DNA of 64,000 nt, from contig NZ_CP015193.1 in the NCBI RefSeq assembly GCF_002214605.1, forward strand, positions 1,860,001 through 1,924,000. The letters are read 5' to 3'. The notes beneath the pieces were generated by a model. That model had not been told where the DNA came from and made no database searches. It saw only the letters and a list, made by a program, of their open reading frames with translations. The stretch comes from Thermococcus chitonophagus (GTDB taxonomy: Archaea; Methanobacteriota_B; Thermococci; Thermococcales; Thermococcaceae). Position 1 is the first letter of the stretch, and every line of letters begins with the position of its first letter. This document shows, piece by piece, positions 3,880 to 61,365 of the stretch. Both the position numbers and the translations under genes were made by a program.

Positions 3880-4821
3880 ATGGCTCACCAAACTTAACGT
3901 TACAATAATTTTGCAGTTTATCAATGACTTCAAGGGCAACGCTGAAGTAGTAGGCTCTATGCTGGAATTTTCTTCCAATAACATCCTTTTGGACACTTAC
4001 ATAATCTCCTGCGTACTTAGTTGCCAGTGTTGGATCTGATACTCTACAGTTTTCCCAGCAAACTCCTATATTACATCTCATATTTTCAGGGCAATCCTGG
4101 TCACTATTACAGTCTATTCCCAAAACTGTCCTATCAGCCTCCATTTCGATATATAGGTCATTTTCATATAACCATTTGGGAATAGTTTTAAACTGATCAT
4201 GGGAGTATGGAACTTGATAATAATTTGGTTGTGGGAAGATATAATCAAAGTACTCTTTTATACTATCCTCATTTTCTCCCAAACTTGAATTATTATCCAA
4301 ATAATCAACACTACGTCCCCTAAGTGCTGGTATCCAGATAAATTCAAGGCCATGGTCTTTAATATACTCTGACATTTCTTTAATTAACTCAGCGCTAACT
4401 TTCTTTCCTTTATCATATCCATAAGTTGTCTGGATTACACTTTCAAGACTCCAATAAAAGCCCACAAAATTTTGAAGATGGAGAGTATCTAAAAAGCCAT
4501 CAATCCATTTTTGCCAATAAGAATTTTGAAATCTACCTTCTGAGTCATCTCTTGGAATTTTGCTATGATACCTATAAAAGGGTATAGGAGCATAAAATTT
4601 ACTGTCACCAATTTCTTTTTTAAGAATTTTGCAAGTTGCCGGCCATCCTCGTATCCATCCTTTGTAAAGTTACATTGTTTTCCTTCCCCATCTAGGGCAA
4701 TAAGACAGTCAAAGCCCCTTTCCTTAAAATCTTCTGTGATTGCTTTTTTATCTCCAAGTTTCATTCTTGATTCATACGTTGTTCCGTTCCATCTAAACCA
4801 CCATAAACTAAAAGTTGTCAT
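3872..4821 (-). pseudogene. DUF4855-like protein interrupted by a single -1 frameshift
   Basis: Two reading frames join into one coherent protein of about 316 residues. The first (from ATG 4821, ribosome binding site GGTGA) runs to LAKFLKK, then continues in the -1 frame as EIGDSKFYAPIPFYRYHSK and onward through GFYWSLES to KFGEPYV. The switch point is the sequence A-AAA-AAG near 4616-4622, in phase with the first frame. Content (aromatic-rich, FYAPIPFYR, GFYWSLES) suggests a DUF4855-type, glycosidase-like fold, but this is a weak recollection. A Cys-rich insert (CNSDQDCPENMRCNIGVC) lies in the C-terminal half. It could be a decayed gene, a sequencing slip in a run of six A, or programmed frameshifting. 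Confidence 0.6.
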
Positions 4822-4835
4822 TTTCTATTCACCTA

Positions 4836-4871
4836 TAATTATTACCTGATAATTAATTATTACATGATAAT
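4836..4871 (-). repeat. Tandem 18-bp direct repeat in the leader of the 3872-4821 gene
   Basis: Two abutting copies, 4836-4853 and 4854-4871, differ at one position (TAATTATTACCTGATAAT and TAATTATTACATGATAAT on the plus strand). On the minus strand they lie between a TATA-like CATTTATATG (about 4876-4885) and the start codon at 4821, at the expected transcription start and leader. A regulator binding site is the simplest reading. Confidence 0.5.
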
Positions 4872-4957
4872 TGAGCATATAAATGTTTTTCCATCTTATT
4901 TCAAACATAGATATTAAATTAGGGATAATAGAAAGTAGGATATTATATCCTACAGTC

Positions 4958-5146
4958 CTATCTCGCCCGCACCTCGATTTTCCTGCCAAGAACCAGCTCG
5001 ACAGCCTTAACTGCTGCTCCACCTGTCCCAACTGCAATCCTAACTTGATCCCTGGGGACGTAAACTATTATCTTCTCTCCATCGAACTCTAAGTCGATTA
5101 TATCAACCCTTAGCATCTCCCTTAACCTTTTGTACATCTCCTCCAT
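4958..5146 (-). CDS. Small KH-domain RNA-binding protein
   Basis: A 62-residue protein consisting of one KH-like unit, with the pattern IIVYVPRDQVRIAVGTGGAAV, in which GTGG takes the place of the GXXG loop that contacts RNA. It resembles the NusA-type KH modules of archaea, but the target RNA is unknown. The start ATG at 5146 is preceded by GGTGGTTGGA. The stop codon of the NMN adenylyltransferase gene ends 9 bases upstream, so the two are co-transcribed. Confidence 0.7.
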   Translation of the reverse strand: MEEMYKRLREMLRVDIIDLEFDGEKIIVYVPRDQVRIAVGTGGAAVKAVELVLGRKIEVRAR

Positions 5147-5155
5147 TCCAACCAC

Positions 5156-5713
5156 CTAATACTCTGGGATCCTTATTGGGGCCTGAAGCTCCTTCTCCGA
5201 GGACTCCAAGTTGGTTGCAAGCATTCTAATCCTCTCAACACCCTTGATCTCCTTTATGTATTCGGCCACGCTCTTGGGGACTAGATCCTCCCAGGGCTCT
5301 CCCTCAATCATCCTCCTCCTGATTTCGGTTGCTGAGAGTATGTCCTTTCTAAACATTGGCTGCACTATAACCTTGTATCCCCTCTCCCTGAAGAGCTCGG
5401 CAACTAGTGAATTTCCCGTGAAAACAACCTCAAACTTTGGAACCATCGCTTCAACATACGGAACCCATATGGAGTTGAAATTTATATCAGGTAGGGGTAC
5501 GAGGTAGTACCTCTTCTTGAAGCCGGCCTCATCTAGGGCCCTGATCAACATCTCCATCCTCTCTCCCGTCGTAAAGGGATTTTTGATGGTGTGGCTTGCT
5601 TGAGCACTCCCGATTCCAATTATCACTTCATCCACTTGAGAGAAAACGAATTCCAGAGCCTTTATGTGGCCATTGTGGACGGGTTGAAATCTACCAACGA
5701 ATAAACCCCTCAT
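5156..5713 (-). CDS. Nicotinamide-nucleotide adenylyltransferase
   Basis: Joins NMN and ATP to make NAD+ in the cytoplasm. The 185-residue protein carries the nucleotidyltransferase signature GRFQPVHNGH near its N-terminus (G-x-x-x-P-x-x-x-GH) and the second motif LSATEIRRRM (ISxTxxR type) near residue 125. The size matches archaeal NMNATs, which are compact and hexameric. The ATG at 5713 follows GGAGGTGAGAAA. It lies between the DUF62 gene (4 bases upstream) and the KH gene, all in one direction. DUF62 enzymes release adenosine from SAM, so an adenosine/NAD metabolic link is possible but unproven. Confidence 0.92.
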   Translation of the reverse strand: MRGLFVGRFQPVHNGHIKALEFVFSQVDEVIIGIGSAQASHTIKNPFTTGERMEMLIRALDEAGFKKRYYLVPLPDINFNSIWVPYVEAMVPKFEVVFTGNSLVAELFRERGYKVIVQPMFRKDILSATEIRRRMIEGEPWEDLVPKSVAEYIKEIKGVERIRMLATNLESSEKELQAPIRIPEY

Positions 5714-40835: not shown

Positions 40836-40890
40836 GTGTCAGGGGCCGATTAGCTCATCACAGCTCAGCTACCTACCCTTTCTTCATCCA
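40836..40890 (-). ncRNA. Box C/D sRNA downstream of the signal peptidase gene
   Basis: On the minus strand: C box ATGAAGA (40887-40881, one mismatch to RTGATGA), 12-base guide AAGGGTAGGTAG, D' CTGA, 3-base spacer, C' GTGATGA, 12-base guide GCTAATCGGCCC, D CTGA (40842-40839). Spacing is identical to the sRNA at 9250. The C box overlaps the stop codon of the signal peptidase gene, so the RNA is probably processed from that transcript. Confidence 0.75.
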
Positions 40891-41348
40891 CCAAGACCGA
40901 ATATTTCCCTAAGCTTTATCGATATCCATCCTATCTTAGGAATTACGAGAAGAGCTTTAGCCTCTATCGCCTGCTGGGGCACACAATCCAAAACTCCTGC
41001 GGGTGTTGGATATAAGTCTGGAATGGGATTATTATCCCCCCATGTTACGAAACACAACTCCTCCCTACCATTAACTACTATCTCCTTAATCTCCCTGACC
41101 CTATGGATTATTGGATATTTTGCTAGGGGGCTTTTATACACGACAACATCACCAATCTTAACATCTTCAGGCTTTACTCCCTCAAGAACGACAACATCCC
41201 CCCTATAGAAAACAGGTTCCATAGATCCACTAACCACAACTACCAAAGGCATGTTAGTATGAAGAACGAGCCTAAGGCCAGAGTAAAGCCCAAGGGCCAC
41301 AAGGATTATTAGAGCCGTGGATATAACTTCCTTAACTGCCCCCTCCAT
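40884..41348 (-). CDS. Signal peptidase I (archaeal S26B)
   Basis: Removes signal peptides of exported proteins at the membrane. The 154-residue protein has one N-terminal membrane segment, the catalytic Ser in VVVVSGSMEP, His in YPIIHRVREI (the Ser/His type of archaea and the ER), and the conserved FVTWGDNNPIPD. ATG 41348 follows GGAGG. This is the general housekeeping enzyme; a second, specialised one is at 52626. Its start overlaps the DUF531 gene by 40 bases. Confidence 0.92.
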   Translation of the reverse strand: MEGAVKEVISTALIILVALGLYSGLRLVLHTNMPLVVVVSGSMEPVFYRGDVVVLEGVKPEDVKIGDVVVYKSPLAKYPIIHRVREIKEIVVNGREELCFVTWGDNNPIPDLYPTPAGVLDCVPQQAIEAKALLVIPKIGWISIKLREIFGLGG

Positions 41349-50861: not shown

Positions 50862-51317
50862 ATGACATTTCCAATATTGTTCGTTTATGCCCAATCCTCT
50901 AGAACTATTCTAGGTAATGAAAGAAGAATATGGGTAATTGAATGTCTAAAACAGAATCATGGAAAAGCCGAAATTGGAAAGATAGTTGATTATATTGCAG
51001 AGTTAGAAGGGAACAACACGAGAAGACATAGAAAGAGTATATATGTGAGCCTAGTTCAAACTCACCTGCCAAAAATGGAAAGAGAGGGCATAATTAAAGT
51101 TGAGAGAGGGAACGTTGAACTCCTAAAGATCCCACAAGAGGTAGAAAGATACATGAAAACAAGAGATACACTAAATTTCTGGCCAATTATTTATGTAGTG
51201 TTCTCAGGTGCAGCCCTCATCGCTTCCCTCATTAGAAAGAGCAATGACGGCGTTATAATAGCACTTCTCCTTCTTGCTCTTGCAGTTCTTCACTGGATTA
51301 AGGCTTCGGGGCAATAG
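50862..51317 (+). CDS. Winged-helix protein with C-terminal membrane hairpin
   Basis: The 151-residue protein has a winged-helix region (about residues 20-95: RRIWVIECLKQNHGKAEIGK, IYVSLVQTHLPKMEREGIIK) of the DUF7344-like type, then two membrane segments (FWPIIYVVFSGAALIASLI and VIIALLLLALAVLHWI). It is a likely membrane-tethered transcription regulator. ATG 50862 follows AAGGTGAAACATT. It directly precedes, and is co-directional with, the secreted-filament genes, whose promoter carries a perfect inverted repeat, so it is a candidate regulator of them. Confidence 0.7.
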   Translation: MTFPILFVYAQSSRTILGNERRIWVIECLKQNHGKAEIGKIVDYIAELEGNNTRRHRKSIYVSLVQTHLPKMEREGIIKVERGNVELLKIPQEVERYMKTRDTLNFWPIIYVVFSGAALIASLIRKSNDGVIIALLLLALAVLHWIKASGQ

Positions 51318-51373
51318 TTAACATCTTTTTCCTACGGTAACCATTGATTACTTCTTGGTTAATTTAAAACTAC

Positions 51374-51424
51374 CTATATACTTGTTCAGGACTACAATCA
51401 GATTGGACCCATATACGGGTCCAA
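51374..51424 (+). promoter_or_regulatory. Filament-operon promoter with perfect 8-bp inverted repeat
   Basis: TATA element CTATATAC at 51374-51381. At the expected start of transcription lies TTGGACCC (51403-51410), six bases ATATAC, then GGGTCCAA (51417-51424), an exact inverted repeat. It could be an operator or a 5'-leader hairpin protecting an abundant mRNA. The first ribosome binding site (GGAG at 51433) follows at once. Confidence 0.6.
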
Positions 51425-51445
51425 GAGTATTTGGAGATGGAAAAG

Positions 51446-52039
51446 GTGAATAAATTTGGACTTGCCATATTTGGTCTAGTGGCCGTTTTCGGCCTTGTTC
51501 TTGGGGCTGGGGCCACATTTAGCGACTACAATGCCAGCAGAAGCGTACACTGGGACATAGTAACAGATGACACGGAGCTCATTGACTTAACTCCCATACA
51601 GCCCTATTCATATATCAATCAAACTACGGGAAAACTCGTCATAGATTTCTCAACGAACAATCCAAATTACCCAGGATACGGGGACGGCATAAGCCCTGCA
51701 TCAGAGTACAACTTTGATGAAGTTTTTGGAGTAAGCAACCACCTTTGGGAAGACATGGACATCGTAGTAGAAATAAAGTCAACAAACAGCCACATAGAAC
51801 TATACGGGGCAGATGGTGATGTCTATTCAGCATATGATGGTGTAAAAGCATCAGCTAGCGATTCAGCAAGAGACTGGGTCTGTTTTGTAGTTCCTAACAA
51901 TGCCACAGTTAAGATAGGAATTGACTTGTCAGCAAATGGTGACAGTCCAGGTGATACTTGGACCGGAGATATTGAGATTAAAGCATACAGGCTTGGCACT
52001 GAGCCTGCTTACTTGGCAGGCAAGTGCGGGCAGCCATGA
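51446..52039 (+). CDS. DUF1102 secreted protein, putative filament subunit 1
   Basis: The 197-residue protein has a SipW-type leader (hydrophobic helix, then GAGATFSDYNASRSVHW) and a beta-rich body with YPGYGDGISPASEYNFDEVF and VSNHLWEDMD, the DUF1102 core. Comparable leader and body patterns occur in TasA/camelysin-like filament proteins, to which archaeal bundling pili also belong. I infer an extracellular, self-assembling subunit. GTG 51446 has GGAG 9 bases upstream and aligns with the start of its paralogue; ATG 51437 is an alternative. Confidence 0.72.
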   Translation: MNKFGLAIFGLVAVFGLVLGAGATFSDYNASRSVHWDIVTDDTELIDLTPIQPYSYINQTTGKLVIDFSTNNPNYPGYGDGISPASEYNFDEVFGVSNHLWEDMDIVVEIKSTNSHIELYGADGDVYSAYDGVKASASDSARDWVCFVVPNNATVKIGIDLSANGDSPGDTWTGDIEIKAYRLGTEPAYLAGKCGQP

Positions 52040-52053
52040 AGGAGGTATGAGAA

Positions 52054-52584
52054 ATGAATAAATTATTTGGGTTTGCCCTGTTCTTTGCAGGGCTAATGTT
52101 AGCCGTTGGCGCTGGAGCCAACTTCAGGTATTTCGAAGCAAGTAGAGATGTAAATGTCGCTATCGTAGCAGATGACAACGAGCTTATTGACTTGACTCCA
52201 CTTCAGCCTTATGTATATCTGAACAATGGAAAAATGACAATTGAAATCTCATCAAACAACCCACATTACCCAGGATATGGAAGTGGCCTCAGCCCAGACA
52301 GCACGTACGTATTTGAGGAAATGTTTGAGATTAGCAACGAACTATGGGAAAATGCAGATCAAGACTATCCAATTTGTGTAGAAGTGAAGGCCAGTGATGG
52401 AGTACAGGTATTTGCAGGATCATTTGATAACCCAACAGCTGGGCCTGCTGGAAACATTAGTGTTACTGTATATCATGGAAGTCCCGTAAAAATAGGGATG
52501 ATATTCAACAACTATGGAAAGAACCTTGGCAGTGAGCAATTCCAGTTGGATATTAACACCGAAGCAGGTGAATGTACTAGGTGA
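52054..52584 (+). CDS. DUF1102 secreted protein, putative filament subunit 2
   Basis: A 176-residue paralogue of the preceding gene with the same layout: leader (LFFAGLMLAVGAGANFRYFE), ADDNELIDLTPLQPYVYLN, YPGYGSGLSPDSTYVFEEMF and ISNELWENAD. The two share a long conserved core but differ at their C-termini, as expected of major and minor or capping subunits. ATG 52054 follows GGAGGTATGAGAA, a strong site. The stop overlaps a terminator hairpin. Confidence 0.75.
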   Translation: MNKLFGFALFFAGLMLAVGAGANFRYFEASRDVNVAIVADDNELIDLTPLQPYVYLNNGKMTIEISSNNPHYPGYGSGLSPDSTYVFEEMFEISNELWENADQDYPICVEVKASDGVQVFAGSFDNPTAGPAGNISVTVYHGSPVKIGMIFNNYGKNLGSEQFQLDINTEAGECTR

Positions 52585-52605
52585 GGAGCCTTTGCTCCTC
52601 TTTTT
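52583..52605 (+). terminator. Hairpin terminator after the DUF1102 pair
   Basis: GAGGAGC (52583-52589), loop CTTT, GCTCCTC (52594-52600) and five T form a 7-bp stem with a T-run. It would end most transcripts after the two subunit genes and let a fraction read into the signal peptidase gene. Confidence 0.65.
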
Positions 52606-52625
52606 AACTCTTGGTGGTTCAAGCT

Positions 52626-53600
52626 ATGAGGGCCTCCGATATTTTAATTCTAGCAATAATCCTTGGGCTAATAGTTCCCTCGACAATTGGATTCCTAGTT
52701 GGGAGGCCCGTCTTTGTTTCATATGTATACTCTGAAAGCATGTATCCAACTCTAAAGAAATGGGACGTGTTTTTCATAAATCCATTTTCAAAAGGAGACA
52801 TTGGGGATATAATAGTTTTCAACCTTTCTGGCAGATGGACCGTTCACAGAGTCTATGCCATAACTGAGAAAGGATATATAACAAAAGGAGATAATAACGT
52901 CGCAACCGACCAACAAGACGGCAAAAACGCTCCTATACCAAAAAATCAGATAATTGGAAAGGTTATAACTATTGGAGGGAGACCATTAAAGATACCTGGG
53001 CTGGGGAAGTACATTACGTCCTCAGCGACCATGGTTATAGTTGGTGCATTGGGTATACTATCGATTATATCCGATACAGGTATGAAGAGAAAGAAAAGAA
53101 AGAGAATAGTAGTAACAACAGAGCAGATTTACCTAGGGCTTGCTGGGCTCCTTACAATTACAATGATCTTCATAGGTTCAATGAGCTGGGGAGAAGTAGA
53201 GATTACATACGCCTCAACACTCGCAGGAGGACAGAGGGAGGGATGGTATCTACCAGGAAGCACAATTGAAAAGAACTTAACAATAAAGAACCCTTCAATG
53301 ATTCCAATGGTCGTAATAGCTAGTGGAAAGATCATTAACACTACAACGCTTATGTTAAAAGGGCGTGAAGAAGCAACGATACCAGTAAAGATTCTTGTAC
53401 CAAAAGAAACTAGGATATATACAGATAAGGTCAGCATATCCTCATACTATCCAATTCTCCCAATTTCGGTAATAGATAACCTTTACAGGATAAATCCTCG
53501 TCTGCCTCTAATAATTGAGGGTATGCTAGTATTCCTCCTCCTGCTCGCAATAGAACCACTCCTCGGGGATCCCGAGGTAGTATTTACAAGGAGATTTTGA
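52626..53600 (+). CDS. Dedicated signal peptidase (SipW-like S26B) with long C-terminal extension
   Basis: The 324-residue protein begins with a membrane helix and the S26B core: Ser in YSESMYPTLKKWD, His in WTVHRVYAI, and YITKGDNNVATDQQD. Beyond residue about 150 come a membrane helix, a basic loop (KRKKRKR), a second helix, a lumen-side beta domain with sequons and a last helix (LVFLLLLAIEPLL). Ordinary archaeal signal peptidases stop near 150 residues (compare 40884). The extension and location suggest it processes the neighbouring DUF1102 proteins. ATG 52626 follows GGTGGTTCAAGCT. Confidence 0.8.
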   Translation: MRASDILILAIILGLIVPSTIGFLVGRPVFVSYVYSESMYPTLKKWDVFFINPFSKGDIGDIIVFNLSGRWTVHRVYAITEKGYITKGDNNVATDQQDGKNAPIPKNQIIGKVITIGGRPLKIPGLGKYITSSATMVIVGALGILSIISDTGMKRKKRKRIVVTTEQIYLGLAGLLTITMIFIGSMSWGEVEITYASTLAGGQREGWYLPGSTIEKNLTIKNPSMIPMVVIASGKIINTTTLMLKGREEATIPVKILVPKETRIYTDKVSISSYYPILPISVIDNLYRINPRLPLIIEGMLVFLLLLAIEPLLGDPEVVFTRRF

Positions 53601-53602
53601 GA

Positions 53603-53968
53603 ATGATAAGAAAGATATTTGGTTTAGTCCTAATAGTGCTCGCCTTAACTCTCCCAACTTTTTCCACATTTAGCTACTATAGGGCCCAAAGGAAGGTAAC
53701 GATTGAGATTGGAAATGACCCAATGATAAAAGTTGATTGCCTAGGAAATGGGAGTATAAAAGTAACAAACAACATGGATACAATCGTTCATTTACAGGTT
53801 ACTTGCAAACACTGTAAAACAGAAATTGAAACACTATATCCTGGAGAAAACATTACAATTGAGCACTGCCACAAGTATCTTGTGGTTGCAAGCTGGGAGA
53901 ATGGGGGGGCAACAATTAGGGGACACTGTTGCTGTTGTCCCCATAATAAAAGGAGATGCAGAAATTGA
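53603..53968 (+). CDS. Small exported Cys/His-rich protein of the filament cluster
   Basis: The 121-residue protein has a leader helix (IFGLVLIVLALTLPTFS) followed by TFSYYRAQRKVTIEIGND, resembling the leaders of the DUF1102 subunits. It has nine cysteines, including TCKHCK, EHCHK and the tail GHCCCCPHNKRRC. The tail could bind a metal or form disulfides outside the cell. Perhaps a minor subunit or tip. ATG 53603 follows AAGGAGATTTTGAGA. It overlaps the next gene by 13 bases. Confidence 0.65.
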   Translation: MIRKIFGLVLIVLALTLPTFSTFSYYRAQRKVTIEIGNDPMIKVDCLGNGSIKVTNNMDTIVHLQVTCKHCKTEIETLYPGENITIEHCHKYLVVASWENGGATIRGHCCCCPHNKRRCRN

Positions 53969-54891
53969 TTAAGAAAGAACATGCCCTAGGGGCACTATTC
54001 CTGACTTTCCTCCTGCTGAGTGTGGCGGCGTATATGAAGGAGGAGAGCTATAAAGAGACAAAATTGGTGGAACAGATAGTCCAAAAAGGTGAGCTATCTC
54101 ACTCAGCATACCTTACTAATGATACAGTCTATGGCAGGATAGCCAGCTTAGAATACTACCCAACAAGGATACTTGACACGATATATGCTAACTACACCTA
54201 TTCCATAGACCCAAGCGAAGCCGGATCATATTACATTACCGGAATGTCCTCGTACTACGTAACAAAAGGAAAAACTAAGATTTACCTATTAAATGAGACA
54301 ATATTCACAGTTAAAGGGAGATTTTCAAATGGTACATTTACCCAGGGCTTCAAAGTGAATTTGACCGAAATTAGAAACAGAAAGAGCGAGCTTGCAAAGG
54401 CGCTAGAACTTCCTAGGATATCCACCGAGGTAAAGATAATTGCAAGAATTAGAACAAAAGAGGGAGAATTTAAGCAGGAAATGCCAATTATCGAAGATAC
54501 AAGTGGCCTCACGTATATAGGAGAGACGGAGCTTGAGAAAAAGAAGAACATAGTCAACACGGAGACCATTCAAAATTCGTTCCTCGGCATGAAAGTTTCA
54601 ACATCACGGATTGTATTTCCATTGCTCGCATTGGCCTCAGCAGTTGCGCTTCTAATTGTGTGGAAACCGAAACCAAAAAGGAGAATTAATGCAATTGACG
54701 GGACCCCTACTGGCATAACATCTAGGGTTTTCATTGCTAATGAAGGGAGTTTAAAGAAAATTGCAAAAATTATTGGGAGTCCTATAATCCATTATACTAT
54801 AGACGGAGTAGATATCTATGGCGTAATTGATGGGAATGTCATCTATGAATGGTGGGCTATGAAGACCGATGGGCCTGAATCCAAGCAATAA
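53956..54891 (+). CDS. DUF5305 membrane protein of the filament cluster
   Basis: The 311-residue protein has an N-terminal membrane helix (ALGALFLTFLLLSVAAY), an extracellular domain with sequons (residues about 30-215; VNLTEIRNRKSELAKAL is typical of DUF5305), a second helix (VFPLLALASAVALLIVW) and a cytoplasmic domain ending VIYEWWAMKTDG. DUF5305 proteins occur beside archaeal signal peptidase and secreted-fibre genes; an assembly or anchoring role is inferred. The 3' end overlaps the convergent 646-residue gene by 35 bases. Confidence 0.72.
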   Translation: MQKLIKKEHALGALFLTFLLLSVAAYMKEESYKETKLVEQIVQKGELSHSAYLTNDTVYGRIASLEYYPTRILDTIYANYTYSIDPSEAGSYYITGMSSYYVTKGKTKIYLLNETIFTVKGRFSNGTFTQGFKVNLTEIRNRKSELAKALELPRISTEVKIIARIRTKEGEFKQEMPIIEDTSGLTYIGETELEKKKNIVNTETIQNSFLGMKVSTSRIVFPLLALASAVALLIVWKPKPKRRINAIDGTPTGITSRVFIANEGSLKKIAKIIGSPIIHYTIDGVDIYGVIDGNVIYEWWAMKTDGPESKQ

Positions 54892-56797
54892 GGATGATTA
54901 TTCCAGCTCCTATTAGTATCCCTAAGCCTAGACTTAATAAGCTAAACCTTGAGGTCGCTGTAAGGGTTTCAGTTACTATGCTGGTCTTTGAGATCGGCAC
55001 AGTTTTTGTTATTTGAACTGTTTTAGTTGTTGTAATTTTCTTTGTAACAATGGAACTTGATATTGTCACAGTTCTTGTTTTGACTACCGTCTTAGTAACG
55101 GTGGACACCTGGCCACTAGACGTCAGCACTGTTACATTAAAGTTCGCCCTTCCAAGGACTTTTCCATATGCTATTAATTCACCTTTTAGAACATAAGTTC
55201 CTGGAGTCACGGCAACGAGCTTCACTACAGATGTTCCCGGCCCAACAGGTACAACAACATTACCACCAAGAACATGACCATTCGACAATAGACCCATACC
55301 ATTAGGAAGGCTCAACGATAGATTTCCAAAGAATCCCTGAGGTGCTTTTATACTAACCTTAACATCAAAGGGAGACCCAGCTGGAACTTCACGTGGAGCC
55401 GTTATCGCAAAATTAACTGCAAGAGGTTTAACATTCAGCTTCGGCACATTTGATGAGAACTCCATGAATTTAAGTCCTCCACAGGCAAGGGGATACGGAA
55501 TCGGAGCAACACCCTTTACTTTCCCCAAAGCCAGACTGCCCGAAGTGAGAGGAACCACAGTAAACTCAAACACTTTCTCCTTTCCAGGATCAAGAGATGG
55601 GATGTACCTCACGGCCTCATTGAGAACCCTAAATCCAGCCCCAGGAATAAACTCAACTATTCCTCCATATATTGGCCTATTCCCCACATTTCGGACGATC
55701 ACTTGAACTTTAGTTGGTACCAATGCAGTAGAGCTAGATGGAGGTATCACAGTTATGTTCAGAAGTGCCAGATACCCAGGCTTTTCTTTCGGGTTGTAGA
55801 ATGTAATGAAAGTTCCCTTTTCACCATCTTGATCTTCACTGACCTCTACAAGCCCAACACTTAGGCCATCGTAGATTATCGGGCTTATCCATACCTTACT
55901 AGCGTTCAAAACTCCAGACTCGAGCTCATCATAGCAGGAGTTTAAAATAGAGACATACGCCATGTCATCGGCTATTCCGTTTACTCGGAATATGTACGGG
56001 GAAATTACGTAGTCATGCCCCTCATAGACCGTAAACTCACGTGAAGGATCGTAGCTCACGCTGATTCCAAGGGCTCTGAGGTAGACCTCTATAAATATCC
56101 TGGGGTCACACATGTTGTTGACCATTATGCACCTGAACCCGATGTACTTCACTATGAAATCTCCAACTATAGCTGTATCTCCCTCCTCTATCCTGTAACT
56201 CTTCCCAGCATAGCCAACAGTAATAACGCTGTTCGTTTGATTATTCACTAACGTCATGTTTATGCTTTCTATCTCCAGCTTCATGTTTTCGTACGTTATA
56301 TTATCCCCGATCTTTACTTCCCCCTTGAAAACCAACGGCCTTGGAATTATTGTTACAGTGTAATTTGCAAACGTGAAGGTAGAGGTCTTGAAGACCTTGC
56401 TCTCTCCACCATATGAGGCAACAACCTCAAATCCAGTAGGCGTAACATCGCTCACTTTTATTGTTAAGTTGCCCACCCTTACTTCTTGACCAACAAAAAC
56501 AGGAGGAAACGAACCATTGACAAAAAGCTTTACTGGATCGCCTAAAAATACCCTGTAGATGGAAATATTTGCCATAGGGAGATTATAAATCGACCTTGGT
56601 ATTAGTGAGTAGTACATAACTGAATTGTTAACCTCTTCAGCGACATAAATACTCCTCCCAGGATCAACGTCCAAGAAAGCCAGCGTTACGTTCCCATATG
56701 TAACCCTTTCCCCGATATCTATCCAACCAACAAATGAAGACGCCAAAGCCTGAGGAAGGAACATTAGCATTAGTAATATCACAATTGTCTTCTTCAT
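54857..56797 (-). CDS. Large exported Thr-rich protein, last gene of the archaellum operon
   Basis: The 646-residue protein has a signal peptide (IVILLMLMFLPQALA), S-layer-like repeats each starting from a pattern such as IDIGERVTYGNVTLAF or VKIGDNITYENMKLEI, Ig-like COG1361-type domains (about residues 370-560), a Thr/Val-rich stalk (KTVVKTRTVTISSSIVTKK) and a C-terminal membrane helix (LSLGLGILIGAGIIILIAWI). It starts 3 bases after the arlJ stop, so it is co-transcribed with the archaellum. It could anchor or surround the filament in the envelope. Not one of the standard Arl proteins. Confidence 0.72.
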   Translation of the reverse strand: MKKTIVILLMLMFLPQALASSFVGWIDIGERVTYGNVTLAFLDVDPGRSIYVAEEVNNSVMYYSLIPRSIYNLPMANISIYRVFLGDPVKLFVNGSFPPVFVGQEVRVGNLTIKVSDVTPTGFEVVASYGGESKVFKTSTFTFANYTVTIIPRPLVFKGEVKIGDNITYENMKLEIESINMTLVNNQTNSVITVGYAGKSYRIEEGDTAIVGDFIVKYIGFRCIMVNNMCDPRIFIEVYLRALGISVSYDPSREFTVYEGHDYVISPYIFRVNGIADDMAYVSILNSCYDELESGVLNASKVWISPIIYDGLSVGLVEVSEDQDGEKGTFITFYNPKEKPGYLALLNITVIPPSSSTALVPTKVQVIVRNVGNRPIYGGIVEFIPGAGFRVLNEAVRYIPSLDPGKEKVFEFTVVPLTSGSLALGKVKGVAPIPYPLACGGLKFMEFSSNVPKLNVKPLAVNFAITAPREVPAGSPFDVKVSIKAPQGFFGNLSLSLPNGMGLLSNGHVLGGNVVVPVGPGTSVVKLVAVTPGTYVLKGELIAYGKVLGRANFNVTVLTSSGQVSTVTKTVVKTRTVTISSSIVTKKITTTKTVQITKTVPISKTSIVTETLTATSRFSLLSLGLGILIGAGIIILIAWIQAHRSS

Positions 56798-56800
56798 CTC

Positions 56801-58510
56801 TCATCCCCCCAGTAGGTATAAGATTATCTCTCCCCCACCCAAGTGCATGAACTTAGCCATGAGCGTTTGTCCAACGTACATTCCCGCAGCAAAGACCCAT
56901 AGAAGGATTACAAAGTAGTAAAGAGATCCAAGTATGTGCCCACCATCAGCAACCTTTATTGCCATAGCAGAAAGCAGTGAGTGAGCTATCATCATAACCA
57001 GCATTGAAATAGTGAGGAGCTGCATACCGCTTGGAGGAATAACGTGGATTATGTCACCGATGTACTCCGTAGGTATCTGCAACCTGCTGAAAAGGTCATT
57101 GATCGAGACGGCAACCTGGAATGAGGCAGCTAAAGAGAATGCAAACGCACCGGTAAGTCCAAGGATTATACCTATAAAATTCGACACACTTTGCTGCCTC
57201 TTCCTCCTCAGTCTCACCAGCCTCTCAAAGTTCCTACTTATAACCTTACCAACGTAATCTGGTTCAGCACCCAATCTTAGGCTCTCCCTAAATATCTCTG
57301 AGAATATTCCAATTAACCAACTGCCAGTCTCAGCAATGAAGAAGTCCCAAGCCCTCTGACTGTCTACTCTTACAGCTAATCTTCTGTAGAGGGCCCTTAT
57401 ATCCTCAGTTAGAGTTCCAAAGTCGTGAGCACTAAGGTACTTGAGTACGAGAAGTAGGGATGCACCACTTGCAGCAAGGGAAGATGCCAAGCTCCTTATG
57501 AAAGCCGGAAAGTTCTCATCTTTCCTGAATATCGATGCCTCCTCTTTCCTAATAACGTTCCCCACGTACATGAGAGGAGTTAACGTTAAGGCTATGACGA
57601 ACGGGGTAGGAAGAGCGAACCTTGGCCTGATTACAACTAGGTATACAAGCAAAACTACCGGGATCAGGGCAACTGACATTATCAGGGCTTTCTTTATCCT
57701 CTCCTGTCTGGGTGTTTTTACCTTCATCTCAGCCCAAATTGGATCTTCGGGCATCCTGTATTTTATAACCAACAGGGTGCCAATCTCCGCGGCTAAAATC
57801 AAGAAGATAAGGTAAAGAGCCAATCTACCGATGTTCTGGCCGGTAATTAGGGGCCCTATAATTATGAACGCCGCTGCAAACACCACCGAGATTATAATTG
57901 ATTCGTATATCTCCTTGAATATATCGAGATCATAGAGGGCACCTTCATAGAACGTCTGGAAGTCGTCCATAACGGTCTGTTGCTCTTGGAATAGGTAATC
58001 CTTCAGCTCAACACCACTATCCAAAGAGTACGCGAGTCTATCAAGGAAATCAGCAAAAACCCTGCTTGGAGTTCTTCTGGCTAGAAATCTAAAAGCTTCA
58101 GGCATCGAACGGTGGAGCTTGTCAACGATAATGTACACTTTTTTAAGCTCACTCGCTATTGCCCCAAGCTTTGGATCGCTCGCGAGAACCCTGAGCAGGT
58201 CACTCCTCCCAATTTCACTCGTTGAGAGTACCGCGAAATAAGTTATGAAGAACGGCAACTTTGAGTTTATGCTTATCCTCTTGGAATCAGCCATTAGATA
58301 TGGATAAGCAACAACGTAGAGAGCTAGAATAATAGGAATTAAGTACATAAATAGCCTCAAACCAGTAGGGAGAGCCACAAGCCTGTTGAAGATGCTTATG
58401 GCAATAAAGATAACTGCAGAGCCAGCTAGCCCAGGTAACAATATCTTCCTAAGGTACTCCTTTGGATCAACGTCTGCCTTGACGAATATGCTGATCTTCT
58501 CCCCTGCCAT
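56801..58510 (-). CDS. arlJ: Archaellum membrane platform protein ArlJ (FlaJ)
   Basis: The polytopic platform protein of the archaellum motor, homologous to TadC/PilC. The 569-residue protein has about nine membrane helices and two cytoplasmic T2SF-type domains (SELKKVYIIVDKLHRSMPEA...SGVELKDYLFQEQ and SLAASGASLLLVLKYLSAHD). It contacts the ATPase ArlI. ATG 58510 follows GAGGTGAATTTC; the GTG at 58519 is inside that site. Confidence 0.92.
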   Translation of the reverse strand: MAGEKISIFVKADVDPKEYLRKILLPGLAGSAVIFIAISIFNRLVALPTGLRLFMYLIPIILALYVVAYPYLMADSKRISINSKLPFFITYFAVLSTSEIGRSDLLRVLASDPKLGAIASELKKVYIIVDKLHRSMPEAFRFLARRTPSRVFADFLDRLAYSLDSGVELKDYLFQEQQTVMDDFQTFYEGALYDLDIFKEIYESIIISVVFAAAFIIIGPLITGQNIGRLALYLIFLILAAEIGTLLVIKYRMPEDPIWAEMKVKTPRQERIKKALIMSVALIPVVLLVYLVVIRPRFALPTPFVIALTLTPLMYVGNVIRKEEASIFRKDENFPAFIRSLASSLAASGASLLLVLKYLSAHDFGTLTEDIRALYRRLAVRVDSQRAWDFFIAETGSWLIGIFSEIFRESLRLGAEPDYVGKVISRNFERLVRLRRKRQQSVSNFIGIILGLTGAFAFSLAASFQVAVSINDLFSRLQIPTEYIGDIIHVIPPSGMQLLTISMLVMMIAHSLLSAMAIKVADGGHILGSLYYFVILLWVFAAGMYVGQTLMAKFMHLGGGEIILYLLGG

Positions 58511-58524
58511 GAAATTCACCTCAG

Positions 58525-60138
58525 TCAGAGCCTGAAGCTCAGACCCTCGATACCCCTCTGGTAGAAGGCCTTGATCTCCCTATAAACGTCCCAGTAGTTG
58601 AATATCTTCAACTCGACCATCCTCTGTATTATCCTAGCCCTAAGGAAGAGCTCATCGTAAATATCCTTGGGATCTTCGTAACCAGCTATCTCAGCTATCT
58701 TCCTCTCAAGGATGTACGAGTTGTTCATACCTCTGAAGATGTGTTTGTCACTCACAGGATCCCACTCGAAGACGTTCCTAGTTGCGACCCCACCGAGCTC
58801 CTCATAGTACCCCTCGATCTCAACAACCGTTAGAACCCTTCTCAGGAATTTACCCCTAACGTAAACGGCCTGCTGGAATATGGCTATGTTGAGATTGTCT
58901 ATGAACGTTATCGGAACGTTAATTGGAGAACCCGTGAAACGCTGTATCATCTTCTTAACGTCACCGGCGTGGAAAGTACTCATCACTGGGTGACCCGTCT
59001 GCATAGCCTGGAATGCAATAGCACCCTCGGCACCTCTGATCTCACCGACTATGATGTAGTTGGGCCTTGATCTTAATGCTGCCTTAAGCAGATCGAACAA
59101 CGTTACTCTACTCTCTTCAGGACCTCTCTCCCTCGTCACAAGCCTCTGCCATGTGGGATGAGGAACCTGAACTTCGGGGGTATCCTCAGCGGTGAACACT
59201 TTTGATCCGGGCTTTATGAATGGTATTATAGCATTGAGGGTTGTAGTTTTACCTGAAGCTGTCTCACCGCACACGAATATACTCATACCATACTCTATGG
59301 CTAGCCAGAGATACGCTGCAATCTCGGCACTCATGGTTCCCCAGGCAACCAGCTGGGTAATGCTCAGTGGGGTTGCGGCGAATTTTCTTATAGTAGCACT
59401 CGGACCCTTCAATGATATGTCGGGAGAGTAGATTATGTTTATACGCGATCCATCGGGAAGGGAACCATCAACTATTGGGTTCCTGTCACTTACTGGCCTT
59501 CCAATTCTCTCAGAAAGGTTCTTAAAGTAATCAGCTAGTTCAACGTTGTCCTTCCACCTTATGTTCGTTGGTAGGTGCTCGAATATCTTGTGAACTAGAG
59601 AAACGTAGTGGGCGCCTATTATGTGGATATCCTCGATGTATGGATCTCTTGCCAAAGGTTCAAGAGGGCCTATCCCAATGATGTCCCTCTTGATCAGGTA
59701 ACGGAACTTCTCCATCTCCTCCTTGGTTATCGTGATCCCTTTCCTGCCTTTAACAAGAGAAAGAACAGCCTCCTCAAAAAGGGAGTCAAGAAATCTCTCA
59801 AACTCTTCCTGCTCCTCTGGAATATCTCTATTTGGGGCCAACTCAAGGATTCTATCTTTTATCATTCTGTACTTCTCTTCTTCCTCCCTCGTTTCTATCC
59901 TGGGCTCGATAACTATGTACTGCTTCTCGGTCTGGGGGTCACCATAGATGTGAATGAAGATTGGATCACCTACAGGATAGATTATATTTGGGTAGGGAAT
60001 TTCCTTCATATCCCTACTTAGTTGAACGTGAAACTCCGGAACTTTACCATACTTCTTTCTAAACTGCTCAACGTACTTCTTTAGGTGAGGATTTCTCCTC
60101 ATTGCATCCTCCAGTGTCTGGGAAACAGCCTCAGCCAT
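58525..60138 (-). CDS. arlI: Archaellum motor ATPase ArlI (FlaI)
   Basis: Hexameric secretion-type ATPase that powers archaellum assembly and rotation. The 537-residue protein has the Walker A GETASGKTTTLNA, an Asp box around FTAEDTPEVQVPHPTW, Walker B region YIIVGEIRGAEG and His box TGHPVMSTFHAGD. The N-terminal domain (KKYVEQFRKKYGKVPEFHVQ) is of the archaellum type, not of pilus ATPases. ATG 60138 follows GGTGGTGAGG and is preceded by the arlH stop at 60159. Confidence 0.95.
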   Translation of the reverse strand: MAEAVSQTLEDAMRRNPHLKKYVEQFRKKYGKVPEFHVQLSRDMKEIPYPNIIYPVGDPIFIHIYGDPQTEKQYIVIEPRIETREEEEKYRMIKDRILELAPNRDIPEEQEEFERFLDSLFEEAVLSLVKGRKGITITKEEMEKFRYLIKRDIIGIGPLEPLARDPYIEDIHIIGAHYVSLVHKIFEHLPTNIRWKDNVELADYFKNLSERIGRPVSDRNPIVDGSLPDGSRINIIYSPDISLKGPSATIRKFAATPLSITQLVAWGTMSAEIAAYLWLAIEYGMSIFVCGETASGKTTTLNAIIPFIKPGSKVFTAEDTPEVQVPHPTWQRLVTRERGPEESRVTLFDLLKAALRSRPNYIIVGEIRGAEGAIAFQAMQTGHPVMSTFHAGDVKKMIQRFTGSPINVPITFIDNLNIAIFQQAVYVRGKFLRRVLTVVEIEGYYEELGGVATRNVFEWDPVSDKHIFRGMNNSYILERKIAEIAGYEDPKDIYDELFLRARIIQRMVELKIFNYWDVYREIKAFYQRGIEGLSFRL

Positions 60139-60158
60139 CCTCACCACCCCCTCTCGCT

Positions 60159-60857
60159 TCACACTACAGCTGCAATCTCAACTACAAGTCCTACCTTAGG
60201 CTCAACCCTGAAGGGTATAATCTTCTGAAATACACCCTTTGCATTGTTGTACTTCACAATCGTTGCCGAATTCTTTAGGTCGCCACCGAAAACTCTAACG
60301 TTAAGGCGCATAAGCAACGTTGATGCCTCTTCGAGGAGAAATAACACATCCCTGGGGAGCTCCTCTGGGTTAGCGGTGAGTATGATAACCTTACCTAAAC
60401 TTGAGAGCCTCTTTATGTACATGAGGAAGTTTCTAACACTCCTAACCTCCTGCTCTCTCGAAAGGACGGATGAAAAGGAGTCAATCACAACGATATCCTG
60501 TTCCCACAATCTAGGTTCACCCAATAATCTGCTTAAGAACTTCCTCTCCTCACTAACTCCACTAAGTAGAGGGTAAAGTGATACAAATACAAGCTTTTTT
60601 CTTATGAGGAAAGGGATTACATCATAGCTAATCGACATCATCTGCTTGACATATTCAACAGTTGTATATTGAGAGGAGATATAGCTTGCGGTATAACCGT
60701 TCATAAGGAACCCGTATAATAGTCTCTGGGAAAGTATGGACTTCCCTGTTCCCCTGTCACCTTCAATGAGCATTATTGTGCCAGCAGGAATGCCACCGCC
60801 AAGCCTCCTGTGAAGTTCATCGCCTTTTAAGTCAATCCTAAGGAGCTCCTCGACCAA
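60159..60857 (-). CDS. arlH: Archaellum motor regulator ArlH (FlaH)
   Basis: RecA/KaiC-like protein that binds ATP and forms a ring under ArlI. The 232-residue product has Walker A EGDRGTGKSILSQRLL and the Walker B-type DIVVIDSFSSVLSREQ. I chose TTG 60857 (LVEELLRIDLKGDEL) because GGGGGTG lies just upstream and the family begins here; the longer open frame would overlap arlG. The C-terminus (VEPKVGLVVEIA) is typical. Confidence 0.9.
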   Translation of the reverse strand: MVEELLRIDLKGDELHRRLGGGIPAGTIMLIEGDRGTGKSILSQRLLYGFLMNGYTASYISSQYTTVEYVKQMMSISYDVIPFLIRKKLVFVSLYPLLSGVSEERKFLSRLLGEPRLWEQDIVVIDSFSSVLSREQEVRSVRNFLMYIKRLSSLGKVIILTANPEELPRDVLFLLEEASTLLMRLNVRVFGGDLKNSATIVKYNNAKGVFQKIIPFRVEPKVGLVVEIAAVV

Positions 60858-60882
60858 GATGATCACCCCCAGGTTACTGATT

Positions 60883-61365
60883 TTAACTCTTAATCCTGAA
60901 CACCAGAACTCTTCTCTTGCCGTTCTCGAGAACAATCTGAATTCTGTGGGGTACTGTTGTGTCCAATGCTGTGCCAAGTGTCACTGTAATAACTCCAACT
61001 TGGAACGGCTGAAGGCTCGTTATGGGATTGCCAGCTGTATCTGTGAATGTTAGATTTGAGGAAGGTACAAGATCTCCATCGATGAAAACCTGAACTGAAT
61101 CAGGACTAAATGGGAAAGCTATCTTTCCAATGTTTTTGACATAAAACGTGTAATTATAAGGTCCAGTACCCGTGACGACAACAGCGTTTGGATCATTTAT
61201 TATTGCAAATTCTATTTTGAGATCCTCTGCCACCATTGCTCCTCTTACTTTCATGCTGTTCGCTAGATCGTTTGTTACATAGGCAAGAGCTCCGGCAACA
61301 CTGCCGGCTATTATGACAGCAACTATGAACATTATCAGTTCACTTGCTGGTCCGCCTGCAGCCAT
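60883..61365 (-). CDS. arlG: Archaellum stator protein ArlG (FlaG)
   Basis: The 160-residue protein has an N-terminal membrane helix (ELIMFIVAVIIAGSVAGALAY) and a beta-sandwich (IEFAIINDPNAVVVTGTGPY, FYVKNIGKIAFPFSPDSVQV). ArlG forms a filament with ArlF that binds the S-layer, anchoring the motor. The start ATG at 61365 follows GGAGGTGAACTGA, immediately after the arlF stop. Confidence 0.9.
   Translation of the reverse strand: MAAGGPASELIMFIVAVIIAGSVAGALAYVTNDLANSMKVRGAMVAEDLKIEFAIINDPNAVVVTGTGPYNYTFYVKNIGKIAFPFSPDSVQVFIDGDLVPSSNLTFTDTAGNPITSLQPFQVGVITVTLGTALDTTVPHRIQIVLENGKRRVLVFRIKS

Follow-up and report, generated by a model that had tools for sequence, protein, structure and literature searches.

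What does a compact run of genes for small exported and membrane proteins, so far named only as DUF families, build on the surface of a hyperthermophilic archaeon? The question is raised by six genes, all on the plus strand, at 50862-54891 of a 64,000-nucleotide stretch of Thermococcus chitonophagus DNA (the window; positions 1860001-1924000 of the 1.96 Mb single-contig genome). An initial annotation, made from the sequence alone, had proposed a self-contained system for an extracellular filament. Conserved gene linkage and predicted fold both support that proposal, and we put the probability that these six genes make a thin extracellular filament of the TasA/archaeal bundling pili (ABP)/Tafi kind at about 0.86. 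The coding features, in window coordinates, are as follows.

50862-51317, plus strand: DUF7344 winged-helix protein, candidate regulator of the operon, with predicted C-terminal membrane helices at residues 103-125 and 127-151
51446-52039, plus strand: DUF1102 subunit a, with a Sip-type leader followed by a modelled AbpA/Tafi-like beta-sandwich
52054-52584, plus strand: DUF1102 subunit b, with the leader motif GAGANFRYF, like subunit a
52626-53600, plus strand: dedicated S26B-type signal peptidase with a 170-residue extension; S38, H74, D89 and D95 conserved
53190-53447, plus strand: peptidase residues 189-274, an Ig-like beta-sandwich within the extension, lying between membrane helices and predicted to face outward
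53603-53968, plus strand: exported protein with nine Cys, the short Pyrococcus form of protein X, consisting of its N-terminal beta domain only
53956-54891, plus strand: DUF5305 protein, with predicted membrane helices at residues 9-28 and 214-238, an outer domain between them and a cytoplasmic tail

The operon and its conservation in Thermococcales

The open reading frames lay on the plus strand where the initial annotation had placed them, and family matches bore out the set: Pfam identified DUF7344 in the first product (6.7e-17), DUF1102 in the second and third (4e-56 and 2e-52) and DUF5305 in the last (4e-7). The Cys-rich protein matched no family in profile searches, and a PHROGs search returned nothing useful. 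For the first DUF1102 gene, GTG 51446 is the likelier start, given its spacing from GGAG at 51433 and an MNK start that then matches that of the second; for the peptidase gene, we preferred ATG 52626 over TTG 52611.

DUF1102 was present in 87 of 94 Thermococcales genomes. We read 79 other Thermococcales loci around it, roughly 12 kb each, and found the order kept: a winged-helix regulator, two (sometimes three) DUF1102 genes, the extended peptidase, a fifth exported protein and DUF5305. DUF1102a and DUF1102b were adjacent in 79/79 loci, and the extended peptidase was present in as many (truncated at a contig end in a few, split in one). The DUF5305 gene was found in 75 loci, the winged-helix gene, as first gene of the operon, in 74, and a third DUF1102 gene (c) in 35. 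Since the operon is kept across the order, a chance arrangement is excluded. A wider search at phylum level added only relatives from the class Thermococci, which were without DUF1102 save for one borderline match.

Of the seven genomes without DUF1102, five were less than 85% complete and two were complete. At L216 (complete genome; join 4942-5211), the front of the winged-helix gene is fused to the last ~60 codons of DUF5305 and everything between is deleted; at L215 (complete genome; join 4583-5272), the front of the gene for X is fused to the same DUF5305 end and everything upstream is deleted. Both retain the housekeeping peptidase only. L213 (5105-5616) has the winged-helix gene fused to the tail of c, with a, b and most of c lost and the rest kept, and in L214 (2700-7900) stops or frameshifts interrupt the genes for the peptidase, X and DUF5305. 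The operon is dispensable and tends to vanish together, and such loss as a unit fits one surface system. We also note that the four decays appear to be separate and that two of them left the first or fifth gene joined to the DUF5305 end.

DUF1102 proteins and their relatives among archaeal filament subunits

The two leaders pointed out in the initial annotation, GAGATFSDY and GAGANFRYF, read exactly so. Under a lenient pattern (small residues, then N, T, S or H followed by F, after a hydrophobic stretch), the motif was found in all a (79/79) and b (79/79) proteins, in X (66/66) and in the Cys-rich protein (8/8), and in only 7 of 35 c proteins. The Phe directly past the predicted cleavage site (P2') is kept in a, b, X and the Cys-rich protein; Phe at P2' is described as a property of TasA that goes with SipW (PMC10269814). 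By inspection no class III prepilin leader was seen; the hydrophobic stretch is followed by a small-residue cleavage site and then by a beta-sandwich. The c proteins have fewer residues separating the membrane helix and the conserved motif that follows it (median 19.5 versus 26), which looks as if the donor strand were missing, and c may be a membrane anchor.

An AlphaFold2 model of DUF1102a built from 117 sequences reached a mean predicted local distance difference test score (pLDDT) of 86 and was least confident at residues 21-40, directly past the cleavage site, which would suit a strand dependent on a partner. Foldseek against the PDB returned AbpA (7UEG) first, with E 1.4e-5 and as the sole match below 0.001, and the Natrinema Tafi pilin (9P0A) second. 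VIA ranked the same two first and second (AbpA Z 8.4 over 119 residues, Tafi pilin Z 7.5) and placed the Sulfolobus thread subunit 7PNB at Z 5.8. The predicted fold of DUF1102a thus has archaeal filament subunits as its two closest PDB matches. As to the proposed likeness to TasA/camelysin-type proteins, the Sip-type leader with its P2' Phe agrees with it, the Pfam TasA/camelysin family was unmatched, and TasA was not among the VIA matches listed, an absence to which we attach no weight.

Profile comparisons tie DUF1102 to TafA as well. In hhalign, DUF1102 matched haloarchaeal subunits at 99.7%, these matched TafA at 98.4%, and DUF1102 matched TafA directly at 96.5%; an unrelated control pair gave 2.5%. 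By these values the haloarchaeal subunits bridge DUF1102 and TafA. The two DUF1102 proteins score 16.5 and 19.2 bits against the TafA model NF052520, below its curated cut-off of 190; by profile, DUF1102 is homologous to TafA, yet not TafA itself. DUF1102 also matched X and the Cys-rich protein (98.6%).

Several points weigh against a filament. A Z of 8.4 is at the edge of the range for unrelated beta-sandwiches, and MSP/PapD-like folds follow closely at Z ~7, so that the ranking, not the absolute score, counts as evidence. No AbpA or TasA chain was matched by the DUF1102 profile among PDB sequences, and in Pfam DUF1102 alone matched at E<1, besides one spurious match, with the TasA/camelysin family among those not found. 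The leader accounts for part of the profile match between DUF1102 and TafA. While operon conservation, the fold match, the homology to haloarchaeal subunits, the leader motif, loss as a unit and a near-unique candidate operator were computed here, the existence of the filament, its polymerisation, donor-strand exchange, partner roles and regulation are inferred. Searches of PDB sequences with DUF1102, DUF5305 and haloarchaeal subunit queries likewise gave nothing credible.

The haloarchaeal relatives come with the same partners. Our distribution survey covered Thermococci and Halobacteria, and searching with the peptidase as seed brought up haloarchaeal plasmids that carry, in order, a subunit, an extended peptidase, a small exported protein and DUF5305. 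On two such plasmid loci (L112 and L116), this four-gene module has its subunit and small protein annotated as hypothetical. The TafA family adjoins the homologous peptidase in two haloarchaeal records. Among 20 further haloarchaeal TafA loci (stretches of up to 15 kb), the extended peptidase was present in 19 and DUF5305 in 16; among 20 haloarchaeal DUF1102 loci, the counts were 15 and 13. We found 44 such extended peptidases in 39 genomes (~1.1 per genome), and a chance match in a 15 kb stretch is therefore expected in less than 1% of cases. A genome contig scan with one TafA protein found two near-identical loci only, and tblastn of DUF1102b against plasmids found nothing. The linkage of DUF1102, peptidase and DUF5305 is thus conserved order-wide, and the peptidase/DUF5305 pair recurs at haloarchaeal Tafi loci.

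These data relate the operon to four known systems. The Tafi pilus (Natrinema sp. J7-2; 9P0A, NF052520), whose pilin we take from the names to be TafA, shares with it the second-best fold match to DUF1102a, a comparable subunit leader (G[ST]GAF...A.R.V), and loci that combine DUF5305 and a pair of TafA-like genes with an extended peptidase whose C-terminal region is the same. It differs in that Thermococcales subunits reach 16-19 bits against the 190-bit TafA cut-off, and that in Thermococcales all the genes run one way in a single operon, which includes a DUF7344 regulator and X or the Cys-rich protein, whereas TafA loci are partly divergent, often with LamG-type or other proteins. AbpA of the bundling pili of Pyrobaculum (7UEG) forms a donor-strand filament in a hyperthermophile and is the best fold match, yet it shares only ~8% identity with the DUF1102a model. 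Bacillus TasA/CalY with SipW resembles the operon in its small exported beta-sandwich proteins, Phe at P2' and an archaeal-type peptidase encoded alongside, without a Pfam or sequence match to DUF1102; to our knowledge, SipW has no outward Ig-like extension. The Sulfolobus acidocaldarius threads (Saci_0406, 7PNB) are donor-strand archaeal filaments with a weaker fold match. For these, the general signal peptidase is predicted to act at an LVA/DV site, and the gene cluster is reported to have yielded no assignable chaperone or usher (PMC9715654).

DUF1102 might instead be a secreted or cell-bound surface protein, such as a matrix or S-layer-associated adhesin, with SipW-like processing and no polymerisation. 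The leader motif and dedicated peptidase account for the export of DUF1102 only, and X proteins carry DUF11 domains, which are common in adhesins. We nevertheless regard this reading as unlikely: the two closest PDB folds are filament subunits, the nearest haloarchaeal neighbourhoods are loci of a solved pilus family, and an assembled polymer would better explain why there are two paralogous subunits and a variant that lacks the leader motif. A camelysin-like system, in which the DUF1102 proteins would be secreted metalloproteases with their own signal peptidase, is the least probable alternative, as neither protein matched a peptidase family at E<1 and the invariant DUF1102 columns (Y54, G81, F90, N98, C194) offer no His/Glu metal site.

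The position of the operon beside the archaellum operon, also pointed out in the initial annotation, suggests that it might be an accessory module of the archaellum, perhaps one that supplies a sheath or an anchoring protein. The two operons adjoin each other and converge in the present locus, which we take from gene content and relatives to be a Pyrococcus one, and in 7/7 other Pyrococcus loci, but this placement is genus-specific, with archaellum genes beside the operon in 0/72 remaining loci within the ~12 kb read. Moreover, the operon's leaders are Sip-type and archaellin leaders class III, and haloarchaeal loci of the module showed no archaellum link. An archaellum accessory is therefore very improbable, and we retain the filament as the preferred reading. 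In the window, genes for tRNA-Leu and tRNA-Gln lie upstream of the operon. Downstream and convergent to it are a gene for a 646-residue exported protein (54857-56797, minus strand; Thr/Val-rich stalk, C-terminal membrane helix, no family match) and then the archaellum genes (56801-60977), FlaJ/FlaI/FlaH-like by our own reading. The 646-residue protein gene sits between the operon and the archaellum genes in every Pyrococcus locus read.

The extended peptidase, its partners and a proposed assembly route

At 324 residues, the operon's peptidase exceeds the housekeeping enzyme (154 residues; 40884-41348) by 170, in agreement with the difference first estimated. It matches TIGR02228 (sigpep_I_arch; 2e-19, 70 bits versus a cut-off of 51.85), its best PDB sequence match is SEC11A, and within the archaeal/endoplasmic reticulum (ER) set of residues S38 and H74 are invariant and D89 and D95 more than 90% conserved. 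By sequence, it is an archaeal/ER-type signal peptidase I (S26B). In the model (pLDDT 80), helices 165-186 and 293-308 flank a confidently predicted beta-sandwich (residues 189-274). If the catalytic domain faces outward, so would the sandwich, and the charged KRKKRKR loop would be on the inner side. The extension matches Ig-like folds broadly at Z ~6, so that no specific relative can be named, and it is common to the haloarchaeal peptidases. A comparison of DUF5305 with the extension found no similarity.

Between peptidase and DUF5305, most loci encode the exported protein X (about 290-480 residues, DUF11 domains); Pyrococcus loci, and a single locus outside that genus, have a Cys-rich protein of 120-160 residues instead. 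The two align over the first domain, with invariant F23, R30, C46, N56, G101 and C109 and a W-x-x-G-x-A motif in both; the Cys-rich partner is therefore a shortened X. An exported Cys-rich protein had been listed in the initial annotation as a part of its own; it exists, as a short exported beta-domain form of X and not as a separate kind of part. The protein at 53603-53968 has nine Cys in its mature part, four of them in a row near the C-terminus, and metal binding or disulfides are possible.

In the filament we propose, Sec would export the two DUF1102 subunits and X or its Cys-rich form, and the dedicated S26B peptidase would cut each after a small residue, leaving Phe at P2'. The ~10 residues freed at the N-terminus would then insert as donor strand into the following subunit and complete its beta-sandwich. 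The shaft would consist of DUF1102a and b, either as major and minor components or in alternation, with X or the Cys-rich protein as cap, tip or nucleator. Where present, c, mostly without a cleavage motif and with a shorter spacer after its helix, would anchor the fibre in the membrane, and DUF5305 together with the peptidase's outward Ig-like domain could form the assembly or anchoring site there.

More tentatively, the peptidase might not only cut the subunits but also serve as their assembly platform: its outward-facing Ig-like domain, possibly with DUF5305, would take over the cleaved subunit and direct donor-strand exchange; we consider this possible, though doubtful. If true, cleavage and fibre growth would be coupled in one enzyme, and the peptidase would do the work of chaperone and usher, both apparently missing from archaea, in Thermococcales and haloarchaeal Tafi pili alike.

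Candidate control elements of the subunit genes and meaning of the operon

Four non-coding features surround the subunit genes.

51336-51352, no strand assigned: palindrome GGTAACCATTGATTACT, candidate operator, consensus RGTAAY-N5-RTTACY
51366-51380, plus strand: AAAACTACCTATATA, putative B recognition element (BRE)/TATA-type archaeal promoter of the subunit genes, read from the sequence and found at the same place in other loci
51405-51422, plus strand: inverted repeat GGACCC-ATATAC-GGGTCC in the leader of the first subunit gene
52583-52605, plus strand: predicted hairpin GAGGAGC-CTTT-GCTCCTC with a T-run behind it, separating the subunit genes from that of the peptidase

In nearly all loci, the palindrome GGTAAY-N5-RTTACC precedes the first subunit gene's TATA box by about 36 nt. 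It was exact to GGTAA-TTACC (N3-13) in 43/74 loci, compared with 0.4% of random 60-mers, and within one mismatch in 65/74, compared with about 2%. The consensus RGTAAY-N5-RTTACY occurs once per genome, at the operon, in six genomes (G001, G006, G008, G012, G071, G093) and three times in T. chitonophagus. Its position upstream of the BRE/TATA suggests activation. The membrane-bound DUF7344 product, a predicted DNA binder with a winged helix read from sequence and two predicted membrane helices, is the obvious candidate to act there and would control the subunit promoter through the palindrome. A precedent is ArnR, which in Sulfolobus regulates motility and pilin genes from the membrane (PMC10269533).

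The hairpin after gene b recurs in most of the 79 loci, with or without a third subunit gene following. Its NTTT loop is shared and its stems vary (GGGGC/GCCCC, GGAGC/GCTCC, GAGGC/GCCTC, GGGAC/GTCCC, AGAGC/GCTCT). In a set of 15 distinct versions, pairing is retained at all five positions of the stem, four of which vary in both partners, a count that leans towards pairing, as the versions were picked by purine/pyrimidine pattern or by eye. Stems of at least 5 occurred in 55% of 75-nt stretches at random positions, and the hairpin is therefore marked by its shared loop, place and composition, not by the stem itself. It could set a and b apart from the remaining genes and so raise subunit levels. 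In the first subunit's leader, the inverted repeats differ between genomes (L032-L111) yet seem to persist; Thermococcus leaders of this mRNA are longer.

TasA/ABP/Tafi-like filaments are already known, and the Thermococcales operon would be a further case of them. Our literature search found no mention of DUF1102 or DUF5305; the ABP and Tafi papers were outside its scope, and an earlier mention of Thermococcales homologues is possible. By analogy with ABP and TasA, a use in adhesion or biofilm formation is likely.

In summary, the operon provides a probable surface-filament system for nearly a whole order of hyperthermophiles, two genera of which, Pyrococcus and Thermococcus, have established genetics. 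The pair of peptidase and DUF5305, present at haloarchaeal Tafi loci as well, yields conserved candidates for assembling archaeal donor-strand pili. Finally, with a membrane-bound putative regulator, a near-unique palindrome and one target promoter, the operon offers a compact regulatory test case.

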